This document shows positions 13,328 to 44,345 of a stretch of DNA of 64,000 nt, piece after piece. The stretch's first letter is position 1; each line of letters begins with the position of its first letter. Location: positions 146,439-210,438 of the forward strand of contig JAENYO010000005.1 of the NCBI GenBank assembly GCA_016841745.1, given 5' to 3'. The notes beneath the pieces are model-generated. The model did not search any database. It was not told the DNA's origin and was given only the letters and a program-made list of their open reading frames with translations. The DNA comes from Acetomicrobium hydrogeniformans (GTDB taxonomy: Bacteria; Synergistota; Synergistia; Synergistales; JAFGMB01). The position numbers and the translations under genes are program-made.

Positions 13328-13819
13328 ATGACGGTAAGAATAAACACTCCCCTTATGGGGGAAGTGGACGTGGAGCAGAGGGACCTCATTTTTTTCCCGA
13401 GAGGCTTGCCGGGCTTCGAAAAAATGCACCGCTGGGTACTGGCGGGAGAGGATGATGACTGTATAAAGTGGCTTATCTCCGCCGACCTGGGGCAGATAAC
13501 ACTGCCGGTGGCGGACCCGGCCCTGGTGGACTCGAATTACTCCCCCTCCATTCCTTTAGAGGTTCTGGAGGAACTGGAGATAGGGAGGATGGAGGATGCC
13601 CTTCTGGTGGTGATCCTTAATATTCCCCGACAGGAACCATGGAAGGGAACGGCTAACCTTTTGGCACCCCTGGTGATCAACCCCGCAAGCCGAAGGGGCA
13701 GACAGGTGGTTCTTTTCGACGAACGCTACAGCGTCTATTCTCCCCTGATTTCCGAAAAGGAAGTGGCTCGGATAGAAACCGAAGAGGCAGACACTACCGA
13801 AGAAAAGGGGAATAACTGA
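13328..13819 (+). CDS. fliW: Flagellar assembly factor FliW
   Basis: The product is 163 residues. The N-terminal MTVRINTPLMGEVDVEQRDL, the signature FPRGLPGFE and the C-terminal NLLAPLVINPASRRGRQVVL are FliW landmarks. FliW binds both newly made flagellin and the RNA-binding protein CsrA; when flagellin is low it releases less and CsrA represses flagellin translation. It overlaps csrA by one base (TGATG), so the two are translationally coupled, and the flagellin gene follows directly. A tail of about 15 acidic residues after the fold is the only unusual part. The ATG start has GAAGGAG-like sequence upstream. Confidence 0.95.
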   Translation: MTVRINTPLMGEVDVEQRDLIFFPRGLPGFEKMHRWVLAGEDDDCIKWLISADLGQITLPVADPALVDSNYSPSIPLEVLEELEIGRMEDALLVVILNIPRQEPWKGTANLLAPLVINPASRRGRQVVLFDERYSVYSPLISEKEVARIETEEADTTEEKGNN

Positions 13820-14097
13820 TGCTTGTCCTCACCAGGCGCAAAGGTGAAAGCATAGTTCTGGATGTGGGTAACGGCATAGAGATAACCGTCATTGAGGCGG
13901 GCAACGGCTCCGTGAGACTCGGCATAGATGCTCCCCGGTCGGTGGATGTGTGGCGCAAGGAAGTGCTCCTCCAGGTGCGGGACTCCAACAGGGCCGCAGC
14001 CCAGTTGCCCGAAGAGGGCCTGGAGGGCTTGCAGAACCTCCTGAAAAAGTGCAGTCGTACCCAGGAAGGCGAAGGCCAGGACAATGGAAGCCCTTGA
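13819..14097 (+). CDS. csrA: Carbon storage regulator CsrA (RNA-binding translational repressor)
   Basis: The first ~58 residues are canonical CsrA ([41 protein letters not shown]). The protein binds GGA motifs in RNA hairpin loops and usually blocks ribosome binding. The product is 92 aa; a C-terminal extension of about 30 residues (rich in E, Q, G) goes beyond the usual 60-75 aa length. This is common in FliW-containing bacteria. The ATG overlaps the fliW stop. The flagellin mRNA leader just downstream contains a GGA hairpin and a GGA in its ribosome site, so this gene probably controls its own neighbour. Confidence 0.96.
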
Positions 14098-14320: not shown

Positions 14321-16738
14321 ATGCGTATTTACCACAATATCAACTCTATGGTAACCCAGAATAGCCTCAAAGCTAACGACAGCTCCCTTTCCAAGTCTCT
14401 TACAAGGCTTTCCACAGGACTTCGCATCAACAGCGCGGCCGACGATGCAGCAGGACTGGCCATCTCCGAGAAGATGAGAGCCCAGACCTCCGGACTCGAT
14501 CAGGCAGTGAGCAACTCCCAGGACGGCATTTCCCTCATCCAGACCGCAGAGGGCGCCCTTAACGAGACCCAGTCCATCCTCCAGAGGATGAGAGAACTCT
14601 CAGTCCAGGCATCCAACGACACCCTTACTTCCAATGACCGCCAGGCCATCCAGGGTGAGATCGACCAGCTCACCGAGGAGATCGACCGTATTTCCGACAC
14701 CACAACCTTCAACACAAAGAAGCTTCTTGACGGTTCAGCCTCGGCCATAACCTCCACAGATAACGCTGACACAAGTGTTTTCGCCAGAGGTTCCGTAACC
14801 AACGAAGGAAACTACAAGATATCCGTAGATCTTCTTCAGGCCGGTGCGGGTCAGGTACAGCAGAGTGATACTTTCGTTATTGCTCAGGGTGAGAACAATG
14901 TTACAGATCTAACCATTGATTCTACCAGTGGTGTTACTCAACTCAAAGCCAATGACCTTCAGGCAGGGGATTATGGTATAAAAATTGACGCTGATCACGC
15001 TGCAAGAGCTGCAGCGAGTTTTACAGAAGTAAGTGCCGATCAGGATGCAGCATCTACGGCAGCTAGTTTTGTTGGAGGGGAAACTCTCACTGTAGGATCG
15101 GCAGCAGGAACTGATACAGGAACTCTAAATGCTTCATTGGTGTTAGAAGTAGCAAGTTTCGATGAAGCCGCTGATACTGTAACTTATAATGTTTCTGGAG
15201 ATGCTTATAAGCTGGATGGAACACACTTTAATGTTGCAGAAGGTACCACCATTACTTTCAGCTTGAATGGTCTCGATGATGCTGCAGTTGCAACACTTGA
15301 TAAATCCAGCCTGGTTCAGGACGATGGAACAACTGCCTCCCTTGAGGACATTGTGTTCAGCAATGATGGTGCAGCAACTGCTGATAGTCTGGCCGCCACT
15401 GATTTTACTGCTGGCGACAAATTTGTAGTCAACATCGTGGCTGGAGACGGAGCTACTGCAACAGATGACGTTGTTATTCAGCATGGTTACGACGGAACAG
15501 CCCCAGTAGATGACCCTGGAGCGGATAACGGTTCTCAGCTTTTTGCGTTTGCTTCCGGAACCTGGGACAATACAAGTACTGATCTTCAGTTCTCCACAGT
15601 CGGAGCTGACGCTAGTGGAACTACTTTTACGACTTATGAAGGTCAAGTCAGCCTGACTATTGGTGGTGCGACCGACTCCACTGAAGCTGTTGCATTAAGC
15701 TTTGGCGATGCTGTAGGTGAAGTTGCAACCTCTGCTACTAAACTTAAAGATATTGATAAATTTACCAATGCTAATGGGATCAACCTTCTCGATGATCCCC
15801 AGACTCTTACTATTGTTCAGGGTGATGGAACAAAGGCCTCAGTAACTCTTTATGCTGACGATACTTTGGGGGATCTGGAAAACAAGCTTAACGATGCAGT
15901 CTCATCGTTGCTTGGGCAAGACGCATATATTGCTAGTTCTGCGGATGAAACCAACATCGTACAATTTATTGATTCTGGAGAGATTACAGCCGATACAAAC
16001 TTCTCTGCTCAGGGAAGTTTCGTGATCAGCAGTGCCGTTACCGGAGCATCTGGTGAATTGAACTTTGTCGGTAGCGAAGGCATAATCAATGCACTTGGTC
16101 TCACCGAGGTCCAGGCCAGCCAGGAAAACCGTTTCTCCGTGGATGTGACCAATGCTAACACCGGTGCTTCAATTGCAAGTGACGTGGAGCTTACGAGCAA
16201 TACTCTTGTGGGTGTGGTAGATGCCAATATCGATGTCCAGTTCGACAAGATGGCAGCTACTGATGTTGCGTGGAATGCAACATCCAAGAGCTGGGACATG
16301 ACTGCCAGCAGCAGTTCCACAGACATCAACATCCACATCGCTGCCAACTCCACCAACTTCCAGATCGGAGCAAACCAGGGTGAGACCATGAGCATCGACC
16401 TGGGCAACATGTCAGCTTCCTCCCTTGGCGTTGACAATATTCTTATAACCGATACAGCCAGCGCTTCCCGTTCTATCTCTGTTCTTGACAGCGCTATCAA
16501 CAAGGTGTCCAACCAGAGGGCTGGTCTTGGTGCTTACCAGAACCGCCTTGAGCACACCATCAACAACCTGAGTACGGCCAGTACCAACCTCACCGCCGCC
16601 GAAAGCCGTATTCGCGACGTTGACATGGCCGCCGAGATGACCGAGTTCACCAAGAACCAGATCCTTATGCAGGCCGCCAACTCCATGCTTGGCCAGGCCA
16701 ACCAGCTTCCACAGCAGGTCCTCTCCCTCCTCAGGTAG
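14321..16738 (+). CDS. fliC: Flagellin, extra-long form
   Basis: The true start is the ATG at 14321, 10 nt after AAGGAGG; the frame is open for 79 codons further upstream, which is not coding. The product is about 805 aa, far above the usual 270-500. The N-terminal D0/D1 ([60 protein letters not shown]) and C-terminal D1/D0 ([57 protein letters not shown]) are canonical and conserved. The middle ~550 residues (about 150-700) are acidic, rich in A/D/T/S/G with few aromatic or charged clusters, and probably form a large surface domain. No sigma-28 promoter was recognised upstream. Expression is probably controlled by CsrA and FliW. A strong terminator follows. Confidence 0.95.
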
Positions 16739-16774: not shown

Positions 16775-16807
16775 AACGAGGCGAGCCCACGGGCCCGCCT
16801 CGTTTTC
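16775..16807 (+). terminator. Intrinsic terminator of the flagellin gene
   Basis: AACGAGGCG pairs with CGCCTCGTT, with an inner GCCC/GGGC stem, one bulged base on each side and a two-base tip. The right arm runs directly into TTTT. It begins about 37 bp after the flagellin stop. It is a textbook intrinsic terminator and closes the fliW-csrA-flagellin unit. Confidence 0.9.
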
Positions 16808-17041
16808 CCCACCCCCCAACTTTCATACAACGAGGTTAAGCCCAACCTCCAATTCATCCAACATTTTTAAAGATTACTCTAAGTCTTTAAGGGAGAAATA
16901 TTAGTTCTTTTAAAGGGTTTTCAAAATCAAACAGTTTAAAGAGCCAAAAGGCTTGAAATTAATAGCTGTTGCTTTAGCAGAATGAAAGAAACCTGTTGAC
17001 AGTATATAGAGGATATGTTTAAGTTATAACACTAGATATGG

Positions 17042-17050: not shown

Positions 17051-17077
17051 TTGCACCTTAGACAAAGTGAGAAAGTT

Positions 17078-17165
17078 GAAAAATGGCAAAACCGCCGAAA
17101 GACGGTGACGCAAAGCTGCGGGTCTAAAGCCTAAGGGTCATGATAGCCGGGTTGCCGAATATTAT
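17078..17165 (+). promoter_or_regulatory. Cyclic di-GMP-I riboswitch (GEMM class I)
   Basis: The sequence has the class I architecture: a P2 stem ACCGCCGAAAGACGGU with a GAAA tetraloop, then the junction GACGCAAAGCUGCGGGUC, CUAAAGCCUAAGG, and the conserved AUGAUAGCCGGGUUGCCG. The conserved ligand-binding and tetraloop-receptor bases of known c-di-GMP-I aptamers are present. It lies about 170 bp before an uncharacterised gene (17333) and is followed by a terminator hairpin and T7 run at 17183-17219, so ligand binding probably controls whether transcription continues. Whether c-di-GMP turns the gene on or off cannot be read safely from sequence alone. Confidence 0.93.
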
Positions 17166-17182
17166 GAAGAATTATGTTCGGT

Positions 17183-17219
17183 ACACCTTGGGGTTAATAT
17201 TTCTCGAAGGTGTTTTTTT
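17183..17219 (+). terminator. Riboswitch expression-platform terminator
   Basis: ACACCTT pairs with AAGGTGT, with a 17-nt loop, and the right arm runs into seven Ts. Base pairing of the left arm with the aptamer's end (TTCGGTACACC) could provide an alternative structure. It sits between the aptamer and the gene at 17333, as expected for a transcriptional switch. Confidence 0.75.
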
Positions 17220-17332
17220 ATTCATCCGGGAGCAAGAGAGAGAATTAAGTTGTTTTAAATAACGTTATTTATGTTACAATAAACTTCAAATGAATAATGA
17301 ACGATTTTTCAAACTCTAAGGAGGGTGAAATT

Positions 17333-17839
17333 ATGTCCATGTACTTTTATCCCGTCGGGCGATCTGTAAAGATCCCTCTTCTTGATCCAGACAACGATAT
17401 CTACATGGAAAGGGTTAGGCTTCTCGCTTTCTTTGTTTCTGAAGCAGTGGAAAAGTGGGAGCTCTTTTATGATCCATCTTTAACAAGTTCAAACCTGCCA
17501 AAACATCTTGCCTATGTCCTTCGCAAGCTTGCTGAAATGCTTCCCTCTGACGATATCGAAAGGATTCCCGAGCAGAATTTCTACAAAAAAGCATCTATCC
17601 TTCTGGATAATTCCAATGAGAATTGGGCAGAACAGGAAAAGGCGGAACAGGCTTTGAATATACTTTGCGCAGGTTTTTCAGGGATCCAGAACCGTCTGGA
17701 TCATGGACTTAAACCCTTTGAAAGCCGGATCCTTCCCATGGTAGAAATCCCGCAGACAGCAAAAAAAGGTTTCGATTCCGGAAAAATGATATCCTTTCTG
17801 GAACTGAAGGACGAACCCTCATTGCTTCTGGCCAATTGA
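17333..17839 (+). CDS. Uncharacterised protein controlled by the c-di-GMP riboswitch
   Basis: I do not recognise this family. The product is about 168 aa from the ATG at 17333-17335, which sits 8 nt after AAGGAGG; an upstream in-frame ATG lacks support. It has no signal peptide, membrane segment, cysteine cluster or known motif. It is mostly helical and acidic, with an opening MSMYFYPVGRSVKIPLLDPD and a central MERVRLLAFFVSEAVEKWEL. The perfect palindrome AAATAACGTTATTT lies at 17257-17270 in the leader after the terminator. The gene stands alone: the next gene is convergent. As the direct target of a c-di-GMP switch beside flagellin, it may adjust motility or attachment, but nothing in its sequence shows this. 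Confidence 0.8.
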   Translation: MSMYFYPVGRSVKIPLLDPDNDIYMERVRLLAFFVSEAVEKWELFYDPSLTSSNLPKHLAYVLRKLAEMLPSDDIERIPEQNFYKKASILLDNSNENWAEQEKAEQALNILCAGFSGIQNRLDHGLKPFESRILPMVEIPQTAKKGFDSGKMISFLELKDEPSLLLAN

Positions 17840-17894: not shown

Positions 17895-18473
17895 TTACAC
17901 CCCGGAGCGCTTCTTTTTAGAGGCCCTGGCGGTTTTCTTTTCTCCTTCAATGGTGTTACCGGTTTCCCTGGCAAGGTCTTCGAGGAGGGACTTGTCCTCG
18001 CCTCCTGCTCCTCCGAGGAGATTTTCAAGTTCTCCACCGATCTCGTTCATAGGTGAAGGCAGGCCCCTCCGTTCCAGATCCTTATCAAAAAGGAGGGCGA
18101 AGAGAACGCTTACAAGGCTGCCCGAATTTATGACTCCCAGGAAGTCCGTCTCCATTTCCTTGAGGTAGGGAAGGTAATGAGGCAGTAGTTCATGGTCGGA
18201 TGCAAGCTTAAGATATTTGATAAGCTTCTGGGTTGAGAGGAATTTCGGATGGCGCATGGATTGCTTGAGAAGGGTTGTAAGATATTTATAATTAGGAAAA
18301 CTTGAACTCCTGGTACCGTCAAGGCCTGATTTTTCCCAGTTAGCCACGGTCACATTGCCCACTTCCATGAGTTCTGCGAACTGGAGCTGGGTAAGACCAA
18401 GGCTCAGCCTGAGTTTCCGTATATATTCTCCTGAAACAACGGGAGCAAACTTCTCTTTACCACTGTTACTCAT
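17895..18473 (-). CDS. XRE-type helix-turn-helix regulator
   Basis: The product is 192 residues. The N-terminal ~55 residues form a Cro/C1-like helix-turn-helix (EYIRKLRLSLGLTQLQFAEL, then MEVGNVTVANWEKSG), which is expected to bind DNA. The rest is unlike known effector domains: a helical middle (residues 60-150) and a lysine-rich tail with KKKR at the end. Similar tails can add nonspecific DNA affinity. Target genes are unknown. Candidates are its own promoter region, the riboswitch-linked gene or the flagellar units around it. It is convergent with the riboswitch gene; the 207-bp A/T-rich space upstream (18474-18680) must hold its promoter. Confidence 0.8.
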   Translation of the reverse strand: MSNSGKEKFAPVVSGEYIRKLRLSLGLTQLQFAELMEVGNVTVANWEKSGLDGTRSSSFPNYKYLTTLLKQSMRHPKFLSTQKLIKYLKLASDHELLPHYLPYLKEMETDFLGVINSGSLVSVLFALLFDKDLERRGLPSPMNEIGGELENLLGGAGGEDKSLLEDLARETGNTIEGEKKTARASKKKRSGV

Positions 18474-18680: not shown

Positions 18681-19256
18681 TTAAGAATTCTGATCAGTAT
18701 TTATTAATTGCATGAACTCATTTTCTTTGAGAGTTGAAAGGCTTCTGCAGATGAGGTCCTGCTCGGGAAAACGGAGGTCCTCCCGAAAGGCTGCAGTCCT
18801 GATGGAATTGAAGAGATCTGTTCGTACAGTTTCTTCAAGGGGAAAGAGTTTTCTGTCCCTGGTGAGGGCATATTGTTCGTAGGTCTTCAAGCATGCCCTT
18901 TTGCATTCCCTATTTTGGTTTCTGTAAAAGAAAAGGGCTTCTGTAGCTGAAAGGCCTGTTCTTTGAAAGACTTTCTCCAGAACATACACGTGATCCTCGG
19001 CAAAAAAGAGATCCCTGTCGATACGGGATGGGGCGAGAAAGAACCTTTCACCTGTCAGTTGCCTGAAAAGGAAGGCGAATTCCTTGAGGAAAATGTTGAA
19101 ATTCTCCAGGTCCCTGTTTCGAAGGGAGGCAAGCTGAACCTCTTTTTGCCACTCCTTCATCCTGTAACCTGGTTTCCTTCCAGATAAACTTTTACCCTTC
19201 TTATGGGGAGGGGTATTTTTACCCTTTATGTTTGGACGGTTCTCCGGATCTTTCAT
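18681..19256 (-). CDS. Uncharacterised basic protein
   Basis: No family is recognised. The product is 191 aa with a strongly basic, disordered-looking first ~45 residues (many K, G, P, R), then helical sequence with paired acidic/basic residues (DRDLFFAEDHVYVLEKVFQR) and two cysteines in a CKRACLKTYE stretch. There is no signal peptide or transmembrane segment. Together with the adjacent XRE regulator on the same strand it may form a two-gene unit with a 207-bp gap. The basic N-terminus could bind nucleic acid, but that is speculation. Confidence 0.7.
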   Translation of the reverse strand: MKDPENRPNIKGKNTPPHKKGKSLSGRKPGYRMKEWQKEVQLASLRNRDLENFNIFLKEFAFLFRQLTGERFFLAPSRIDRDLFFAEDHVYVLEKVFQRTGLSATEALFFYRNQNRECKRACLKTYEQYALTRDRKLFPLEETVRTDLFNSIRTAAFREDLRFPEQDLICRSLSTLKENEFMQLINTDQNS

Positions 19257-19386: not shown

Positions 19387-19896
19387 ATGGGAGGGAGGTC
19401 GGGCATATTGAAGGACAGAAATCATGTAATTGAGGATCTTGCTTTTGTGGATTCTTCCGGTAAATTCATAGACGGTGCGGATTTTGCAAATCTCAACCTG
19501 AAGTTTCCCAAGCTTGAGAGGCTGCTGGATGACATAATGAGCAGGAATGAATGGAGCCGCCTCATTTTCCAGTCCATAGAGGGCTTGGGGGATGTATGGA
19601 TACGAAGGCTTGACAGCAAGGGCAACTTCTGGAAAATATGGCAGGAAAAGGAGTTAGATGGAGAAACGGAGGAAAACCCCTCCATAAGATTCCTTTATCA
19701 TCCTGATCATGGTGTGATCCGCCCTGTGGACTATGCAGACCCCTTTGTCCAGCTCGACGGGAACAGGCGTACGGCTCAGCTTCTCATCTCGTCCTTCCTT
19801 ACCCATTGGCTTTCGGGAGTACTAGTGCTTGCCGAGGAAAGAGATACTTTCAGGGAACTTGAGGAAGTGGCCGAAATGGAGAGGGACCTGCTTTAG
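19387..19896 (+). CDS. Uncharacterised soluble protein
   Basis: No family is recognised. The product is up to 169 aa. The first ATG (19387) directly abuts a hairpin, whereas the TTG at codon 8 has GGGAGGGAGG some 12 nt upstream and is an equally good start (about 162 aa). Features: no signal or membrane segment, a central WSRLIFQSIEGLGDVWIRRL segment and WKIWQEKELDGE, and an acidic C-terminus. It is convergent with the second cheW; a 16-bp perfect stem between them ends both transcripts. Its location among chemotaxis and regulator genes suggests a motility connection only by context. Confidence 0.7.
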   Translation: MGGRSGILKDRNHVIEDLAFVDSSGKFIDGADFANLNLKFPKLERLLDDIMSRNEWSRLIFQSIEGLGDVWIRRLDSKGNFWKIWQEKELDGETEENPSIRFLYHPDHGVIRPVDYADPFVQLDGNRRTAQLLISSFLTHWLSGVLVLAEERDTFRELEEVAEMERDLL

Positions 19897-33886: not shown

Positions 33887-33920
33887 TAAGAGGGCTCCTT
33901 AGGAGCCCTCTTATTATCTT
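33880..33920. terminator. Shared bidirectional terminator overlapping both stop codons (flgK/fliS)
   Basis: The 20 bases at 33880-33899 are a perfect reverse complement of 33901-33920, with one central base. The flgK stop (TAA, 33884-33886) and the fliS stop (TAA on the minus strand, 33919-33921) both lie in the stem. G/C-rich in the middle and A/T-rich at both outer ends, it resembles an intrinsic terminator read from either side. Confidence 0.88.
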
Positions 33921-34383
33921 AACAGGATATGTTCAGGTCACCGCCCACAAGTTCGAGTGGAGCGAATTTCCTCTCTTCCTCTGCAGAGAGGCTGCCCTCT
34001 TTCCAGAGCCCATCCAGAGCCTGCTGCCAGGTTTCAAAAAGCTCTCCAAGCATGGACATGACCCTTTCAATTTTCTCTTTATCTTTTTTGAGGTTTGCCA
34101 TGACAAGCTCGTTATGCATGAAGTCATAGAGCCGGTTAAGCCCATGGGACAGTTCTTCCGCCTTCTCAGGCCTGAGGGCGAACTGAAGTTCCCTTATGGC
34201 TCTCTGGGCTGTCTGGAGCCCTGCATTGGCTCCCTCCGCATTGCTCTCCTCTATGGACATTACGGCTTTGTTACAGGCACCGATGGCGATCTCATAGGTC
34301 AAGAGAAGGAGTTTTTCCCTGGAGGCGGTGAGAATCTCCTGGTGAAGATATCTGAGGCGAACGTTAGTGTCTTTTCCTTTCAA
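33919..34383 (-). CDS. fliS: FliS, flagellin export chaperone
   Basis: The product is 154 residues. It has the FliS helical bundle with YLHQEILTASREKLLLLTYE and KAEELSHGLNRLYDFMHNEL. FliS binds the flagellin C-terminus and prevents polymerisation in the cytoplasm. The start is TTG at 34383 with GGAGAGGG upstream. It is downstream of fliK on the same strand (23-bp gap) and ends in the shared terminator with flgK. Confidence 0.9.
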   Translation of the reverse strand: MKGKDTNVRLRYLHQEILTASREKLLLLTYEIAIGACNKAVMSIEESNAEGANAGLQTAQRAIRELQFALRPEKAEELSHGLNRLYDFMHNELVMANLKKDKEKIERVMSMLGELFETWQQALDGLWKEGSLSAEEERKFAPLELVGGDLNISC

Positions 34384-43019: not shown

Positions 43020-44345
43020 TTGGCCACCATAGATGTTAAGGTGAAAACTTCGGAGCTAAAACCGGGACAGGTTCTTGCTGAGGATATTTACGATATTTAC
43101 GGAAGGCCTCTCCTTTATGCGGGAGTGGTACTCAACCCCACCATCATCAGAGGCTTGATCCTCAGGGATTATCTGGATTATGTAAAGATCCGCGTTCCCT
43201 GCGAGGAAGCCCCCCAGGGTCTTATCAAACCTGAGGAATCCGTAAAAGGAATTCCCAGGGGTATCCACAAGAAGATCGGGAATTTCTTCATCAGAGCCCG
43301 AGATGTTGATCGGGTCCAGGCCGAAGTGGTTGAAGAACTTTCAAAAGATGTGAAACCTGTGATAGATAATATTTTTGATTCGGAGCCGGCCATACTGGAC
43401 AGTCTCCAACTTCTCTCCAGTCATGATGACCATACACATCAGCATTCCTGGATGGTTATGCTTCTGACACTTTCTATCCTGCGAAATGCGGAACTTAAAG
43501 GCATTCTACAGCCCGATCCTTACGATAAGATGGACGCTGCACTTGGGGCTCTACTCCATGACATAGGTAAGACAAAGATCTCTCTTGAAGTCCTTCTCAA
43601 GCCAGGCAAACTGACATCAGAAGAATTCGACCTTATTCGTAAACACCCAACCTACGGGTATGAGATGGTAAAGGCTACACCAAATCTGATGCCCATTGCA
43701 AAGGCTATAATAGCCCACCATCATCGGTATCTCGACGGAAGCGGATACTCCGCCGAGGGGCTGCCTTTGCTTGAGCGGATACCTGATCTGATAAGAATCG
43801 TGACCATCGTCGATGTATACGATGCCATTGTTTCCGAAAGGCCTTATCACGTGGCTGCCCTTCCCTACCATGCTATTAGAATTCTTTTTCAAGGTGCTGG
43901 AAGCAGGTTCGATAAACGGTTCATTTCTCTTCTCGATGATATTGTTGCGGGCTTCCCCTTAAGCTGTTTCCTGCTCTTTTCCGGTGGAATAATCGCTCAA
44001 GTTGAAAAGATCGAAAAGGAAGATAAAGATAATCCTCAACTTAATATTATTGGGTCCTTTTCCCGAAAAGGGGCTCACCTTGTGGGAAGCAAATTTTATC
44101 TAAATTCTGACTCCTGGGGAATGCCCAGGGAAAAAAACCTCATCCTTGGTGCTTATTCAACCGAAAGTCTTGAGGCAAAAGTCAAAGGAGCCGTAAGCCT
44201 TGGCAAAAGTGCAGATGAGATAATAGGTCCGGAAGAGGAATATCACTTCAGCGCTCTTCCAATCTTTGAGGAGCCCCTGCAGAGGATCTTTTCGTTATTT
44301 AATGAAAAATCCCCGAAACCTGAATCATCATCCGTGATTAACTGA
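43020..44345 (+). CDS. HD-GYP domain protein (probable c-di-GMP phosphodiesterase)
   Basis: The product is 441 aa. The HD-GYP domain spans about residues 125-315: first metal-site His in DDHTHQHSWMVM, the HD pair in LLHDIGKTKIS, the HP in KHPTYGYEMV, and the signature HHHRYLDGSGYSAEGLP (the GYP motif reads GYS-x-E-G-L-P). IVDVYDAIVSERPYH follows as usual. Such enzymes degrade c-di-GMP to pGpG or GMP. The N-terminal ~110 residues have a small domain of the type often found before HD-GYP (LKPGQVLAEDIYDIYG) and are not a receiver. The C-terminal ~120 residues are unrecognised. The start is TTG at 43020. Confidence 0.85.
   Translation: MATIDVKVKTSELKPGQVLAEDIYDIYGRPLLYAGVVLNPTIIRGLILRDYLDYVKIRVPCEEAPQGLIKPEESVKGIPRGIHKKIGNFFIRARDVDRVQAEVVEELSKDVKPVIDNIFDSEPAILDSLQLLSSHDDHTHQHSWMVMLLTLSILRNAELKGILQPDPYDKMDAALGALLHDIGKTKISLEVLLKPGKLTSEEFDLIRKHPTYGYEMVKATPNLMPIAKAIIAHHHRYLDGSGYSAEGLPLLERIPDLIRIVTIVDVYDAIVSERPYHVAALPYHAIRILFQGAGSRFDKRFISLLDDIVAGFPLSCFLLFSGGIIAQVEKIEKEDKDNPQLNIIGSFSRKGAHLVGSKFYLNSDSWGMPREKNLILGAYSTESLEAKVKGAVSLGKSADEIIGPEEEYHFSALPIFEEPLQRIFSLFNEKSPKPESSSVIN

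Follow-up and report, generated by a model that had tools for sequence, protein, structure and literature searches.

The class I c-di-GMP riboswitches tested in Clostridioides difficile, that of the flgB operon included, are OFF switches (PMC6200980). In the flgB riboswitch, Cd1, the aptamer and the terminator do not overlap, whereas in pilM, an ON switch of the GEMM type whose aptamer is highly homologous, the two are mutually exclusive (PMC9262584). The locus described here, which lies in a 64 kb window (the whole stretch of DNA analysed), shares with Cd1 the aptamer family, a downstream non-overlapping terminator and a location at flagellar genes (PMC6200980, PMC9262584). It departs from Cd1 in that the latter controls an early flagellar operon, whereas the target here, orf168, is a single gene of uncharacterised function that follows flagellin, and in that the direction of switching was tested in C. 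difficile but is only modelled for orf168. The riboswitch class and logic type are already known; what is new, within the searches made, is the orf168 protein family, the association of all three of its members with the riboswitch, and its position at flagellin. Our literature search returned no publication on control by c-di-GMP riboswitches in Synergistota. Riboswitches of this kind offer one of the few sequence-only routes to unknown players in the choice between swimming and settling, and this one marks a protein family without known relatives, beside flagellin.

At the upstream end of the locus, fliW (13328-13819, Pfam FliW) and csrA (13819-14097, Pfam CsrA) precede a flagellin gene (14327-16738, + strand, Pfam Flagellin_N/C) whose frame is open from 14084 and whose start was chosen by eye. 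The FliW-CsrA-flagellin homeostasis module therefore lies immediately upstream, but orf168 is neither FliW nor CsrA and there is no evidence of its participation. A GC-rich inverted repeat followed by a T run (16776-16806, +), recognized by eye and missing from the terminator scanner's list, is a probable flagellin terminator dividing two transcripts; given this repeat and the convergent orientation of the next gene, orf168 is plausibly monocistronic. That next gene (17895-18473, - strand, Pfam HTH_3) encodes a regulator with a conserved C-terminal region, so that the reported placement of orf168 next to flagellin and regulators holds, and it is followed by a gene for a conserved 191-aa protein with a basic GRKPGYRM motif and no Pfam match (18681-19256, -). 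In each of the three genomes that carry orf168, synteny places the HTH gene next to it and the 191-aa gene next to the HTH gene. The 191-aa family (GRKPGYRMxxWQK) and a 169-aa family (19387-19896, +), both conserved and without a Pfam match, are encoded beside CheW and a sigma-70 factor, an arrangement common to the source genome, Thermovirga and a further genome, G005. Elsewhere in the window are a FliS-like gene (33919-34383), named by eye and not by family search, and a gene for an HD_5 (HD-GYP-type) protein (43020-44342, +). The latter confirms the HD-GYP enzyme of the preliminary description; it has HDIGK, with GYS replacing GYP, and is thus HD-GYP-like but altered in its signature. The lost GGDEF gene also attributed to the window was not confirmed, as no GGDEF domain was found in the 64 kb and the 10 GGDEF proteins of the source genome are all encoded outside it. 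These ten are a plausible source of ligand for the riboswitch.

The aptamer itself (Rfam RF01051, c-di-GMP-I/GEMM-I), located by cmscan at 17075-17159 on the + strand, is the sole Rfam match in the window. It passes the curated cut-off over the whole model (79.4 bits, where the gathering score is 35; E 5.8e-14; model positions 1-87), which rules out a chance match or a wrong family and bears out the clear class I aptamer first described. The G at position 20 of the Vc2 aptamer selects the ligand, and an A there shifts preference to cGAMP. Our aptamer reads UGGCAAA and has a G at the position that, by way of the CAAA motif, we take to be equivalent to Vc2 G20. A class I GEMM riboswitch with the G20A change binds cGAMP (PMC6274999). 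The RNA at 17075-17159 is a putative c-di-GMP binder. Between the aptamer and the gene, a hairpin (ACACCUUGGGGUUAAUAUUUCUCGAAGGUGU, 17183-17213) followed by seven U, with a folding energy of ~-12 kcal/mol, forms the presumed expression platform, an intrinsic terminator (17183-17220, +) that had likewise been correctly placed before the gene; its absence from the pattern scanner's list is probably explained by a 9-nt loop that exceeds the scanner's 8-nt limit.

Aptamer and terminator have no bases in common and can form together, which is the Cd1 architecture (PMC9262584) and one reason why we favour an OFF switch. Just before the aptamer, a leader segment reading GCACCUU...UGAGAAA (17053-17074, +) is complementary to the 3' arm of the terminator (17200-17213) and is a candidate antiterminator decoy: the duplex of its GCACCUU and UGAGAAA blocks with the terminator 3' half reaches -13.7 kcal/mol (P ~0.014 by dinucleotide shuffles). 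When the leader is taken to begin at 17030, the modelled terminator probability rises from 0.20 in the free RNA to 0.99 once the pairs and the pocket of the aptamer are enforced; the corresponding values are 0.68 versus 1.0 from 17040 and 0.92 versus 1.0 from 17075. The model thus predicts an OFF switch whose strength depends on the transcription start chosen, and the direction stays a modelled result because that start is not fixed and the promoter is ambiguous. A possible promoter region read from the sequence (16996-17030, +), with TTGACA at 16996-17001 and a weak, ambiguous -10 element at 17019-17030, falls below the scanner threshold. Pairing of the aptamer's apical stem (17129-17137) with the terminator 5' arm was considered as another antiterminator and rejected, the best upstream pairing being no better than that of shuffled arms (fraction 0.26). 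Equilibrium folding gave no switching signal for most other terminator-type riboswitches of the source genome, and we therefore assign them no direction.

Profile searches recovered orf168 from 3 of the 188 Synergistota genomes, namely the source genome and two Thermovirga genomes (G177 and G178), which together span two taxonomic families and whose copies are 24-31% identical to orf168 at the protein level. An aptamer stands directly upstream in every case (78.4 and 81.3 bits in Thermovirga, loci L021 and L022), within the same order of flagellin, riboswitch, orf168, convergent HTH gene and 191-aa gene. In G177 two transposase-like genes (L067:6325-8899) separate flagellin from the riboswitch, leaving the riboswitch-orf168 unit intact. 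The preliminary description had weighed whether the riboswitch travels with homologues of the protein or whether these occur widely without it and in unrelated contexts; it travels with all three, each of which also has flagellin and the HTH gene nearby, and as far as computation goes orf168 is supported as a candidate new c-di-GMP response gene. Each Thermovirga genome has three class I aptamers, one of which sits at the orf168 homologue in both, a coincidence with a chance of ~6e-8 (300-nt same-strand slots, three aptamers per genome), read with the proviso that the two genomes are related to each other and hence do not represent two independent events. Either the association is older than the split from the lineage of the source genome, or it moved as a unit. 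Expression platforms differ, with a terminator at orf168 in the source genome and, apparently, Shine-Dalgarno sequestration in Thermovirga: in G178 the Shine-Dalgarno sequence can pair with CCUCCUC just 3' of the aptamer and is modelled as less accessible once the aptamer is enforced, and in G177 CCCCCU at the same place could pair with AGGGGG, with no modelled change on enforcing the aptamer. Since the aptamer was retained despite these different platforms, what appears to have been conserved is the c-di-GMP link itself and not just a piece of DNA, making this a clean, testable case for selection on the signal and not on DNA context.

In the search for homologues beyond Synergistota, two scans of genome contigs gave only Thermovirga; the scan over 84,980 species returned a single named record with an orf168 homologue, Thermovirga sp. 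GB_MAG10_013, these scans relying on short peptide patterns that distant relatives may escape. Plasmids and viral contigs yielded no homologue. A weak candidate in genome G159 (E 0.003, within a 512-aa frame) was lost with the profile search and was dropped. A flagellin-type N-terminal domain is encoded by 128 of the 183 genomes of the order, 125 of which are missing orf168; because most flagellated Synergistota do without the gene, it is an accessory and not a core flagellar part. The sole other genome of the source's family (G117, 86% complete) has 14 aptamers, no detectable flagellin and no orf168, and two genomes of the Thermovirga family (G181 and G182) have aptamers but no detectable flagellin and no orf168; this comparison of relatives speaks for a flagellar link, though the sample is small.

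The orf168 frame is open from 17297, and the ATG start was placed at 17333 on the basis of the Shine-Dalgarno AAGGAGG (~17320; AAGGAGGG at 17320-17327, +) and the N-termini of the homologues, which, with a stop at 17839, gives a gene (17333-17839, +) for 168 aa. The product is acidic (pI 5.0), has no segment hydrophobic enough to span a membrane or serve as a signal peptide, and matches nothing in Pfam (up to E = 1), NCBIfam (above cut-off) or PHROGs, in agreement with its original description as a soluble protein of about 168 aa with no known family. AlphaFold2 models of two family members have a common layout of a beta hairpin plus a helical bundle, in which a long helix is followed by three to four helices, with a core pLDDT of ~85-95 and an unreliable final 35-40 residues. 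A three-row profile compared with PDB sequences had a best E of only 0.2, and Foldseek with the two models found no match at E <= 0.001 in the PDB or viral models, the underlying family alignment being a thin one of three sequences with which a fold relationship could be missed. The flagellin chaperone FliS is small, cytosolic and largely helical. The orf168 protein would resemble it in these respects and in its link to flagellin, but has an extra N-terminal beta hairpin and occurs in a genome that already has a FliS-like gene. Similarity to FliS in sequence or fold was rejected on an hhalign Prob of 1% to the genome's own FliS-like protein, together with the absence of a Pfam match and of a PDB fold match at E <= 0.001. 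The HTH and 191-aa proteins were also discarded as relatives of orf168, as there is no profile similarity.

The best explanation of these data, to which we would give about even chances, is a Cd1-type transcriptional OFF switch under which orf168 is made at low c-di-GMP and serves the flagellar programme. At low c-di-GMP, the leader at 17053-17074 and the 3' strand of the aptamer would keep the terminator arms apart, and RNA polymerase would read through into orf168; at high c-di-GMP, the ligand would lock the aptamer, the terminator at 17183-17213 would form and transcription would end. The protein would then be produced in the motile, low-c-di-GMP state together with flagellin, and would act for the flagellar programme as a small cytosolic helical protein, most likely by binding or chaperoning flagellin or a flagellar regulator. 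Computation shows the aptamer, the terminator, the ORF and the joint inheritance of riboswitch and gene order, and it models the OFF direction, whereas we infer both the activity of the protein and its flagellar role; Foldseek against the PDB and viral models gave no fold match in support of a chaperone, and most other class I targets in the source genome are secreted and not flagellar, which speaks against the flagellar reading. On balance, orf168 is probably a new motility-linked c-di-GMP target in Synergistota. A bolder and less likely version is that orf168 founds a new protein family that controls flagella under c-di-GMP gating, confined to a few Synergistota and acting directly on flagellin or its regulators, in which sensing at the RNA level replaces a protein receptor such as the PilZ brakes. 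Such proteins would be an analogous c-di-GMP-flagella link to the PilZ brakes YcgR and MotI but, unlike in these, control of orf168 would act through RNA and not through a protein that binds the ligand, and no PilZ domain was found in it by Pfam up to E = 1.

The opposite polarity is rather unlikely: an ON switch would make orf168 a c-di-GMP-induced flagellar brake, an anti-motility factor produced on settling. A place beside flagellin suits a brake no less than a helper, a highly homologous GEMM-type ON aptamer exists in pilM (PMC9262584), and the targets in the source genome include many surface proteins, possibly expected to be induced at high c-di-GMP. However, the mutual exclusion of the pilM type is missing, there being no overlap between aptamer and terminator and no ligand-driven terminator-breaking element that we could find; the leader model gives OFF, and the Shine-Dalgarno sequence in Thermovirga G178 is further occluded, in the model, on forcing the aptamer.

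It is unlikely that orf168 instead works with the HTH and 191-aa regulators, perhaps by antagonizing the HTH protein, and touches flagella only indirectly. In all three genomes both genes lie next to orf168, and the block of 191-aa, 169-aa, CheW and sigma-factor genes stands in G005 without orf168, the HTH gene or a nearby aptamer. Yet three genomes have the HTH gene but not orf168 and G005 has the 191-aa gene but not orf168, the convergent orientation means that there is no co-transcription, and the families have no profile similarity.

That the aptamer is a general-purpose regulatory cassette, landed by chance ahead of a gene irrelevant to flagella, is very unlikely: 18 aptamers in the source genome and 14 in G117 do indicate an element spread within the family, but Thermovirga, with three per genome, has one at orf168 in both and the aptamer was retained though the expression platforms differ.

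Class I aptamers were found in 23 of the 183 genomes of the order. The source genome (3.04 Mb, 15 contigs) has 18, so that control of orf168 by such a riboswitch, as one of 18 such targets, is unexceptional there. Most of the 18, judged by eye from translations and gene order, precede large genes whose products start like signal peptides; the others include proteins of sensor or GGDEF type (in the L015 aptamer target the GGDEF domain, at C14:412737, is more than a by-eye assignment), one threonine-dehydratase-like gene and two paralogous soluble proteins. Both terminator-type and short Shine-Dalgarno-type platforms are present in this genome: across loci L010-L020, at least nine aptamers have terminator platforms and in about four the leader is short and carries a UAGGGGAGGU Shine-Dalgarno, in most of them after a CCUA complement. 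The paralogous soluble proteins (L014:2390-3007, -; L017:787-1332, +), also found at L070 and L075 in G117, share a C-terminal motif like MKKSIRIRKNGEQVNVRVFVGEEEFCGM and, encoded directly behind c-di-GMP-I aptamers in two genera, constitute another uncharacterised c-di-GMP target family. In Thermovirga and genome G004, tandem c-di-GMP-I aptamers (L065, L066 and L079) precede the gene for a secreted protein that starts with CTLWAATGSAT..AKNRDW and by eye resembles C45/choloylglycine-hydrolase-type enzymes. The aptamer before the threonine-dehydratase-like gene (L020:3566-3703, -) has an unusually long insertion, giving a 138-nt match, and a similar one occurs in G117 (L077).
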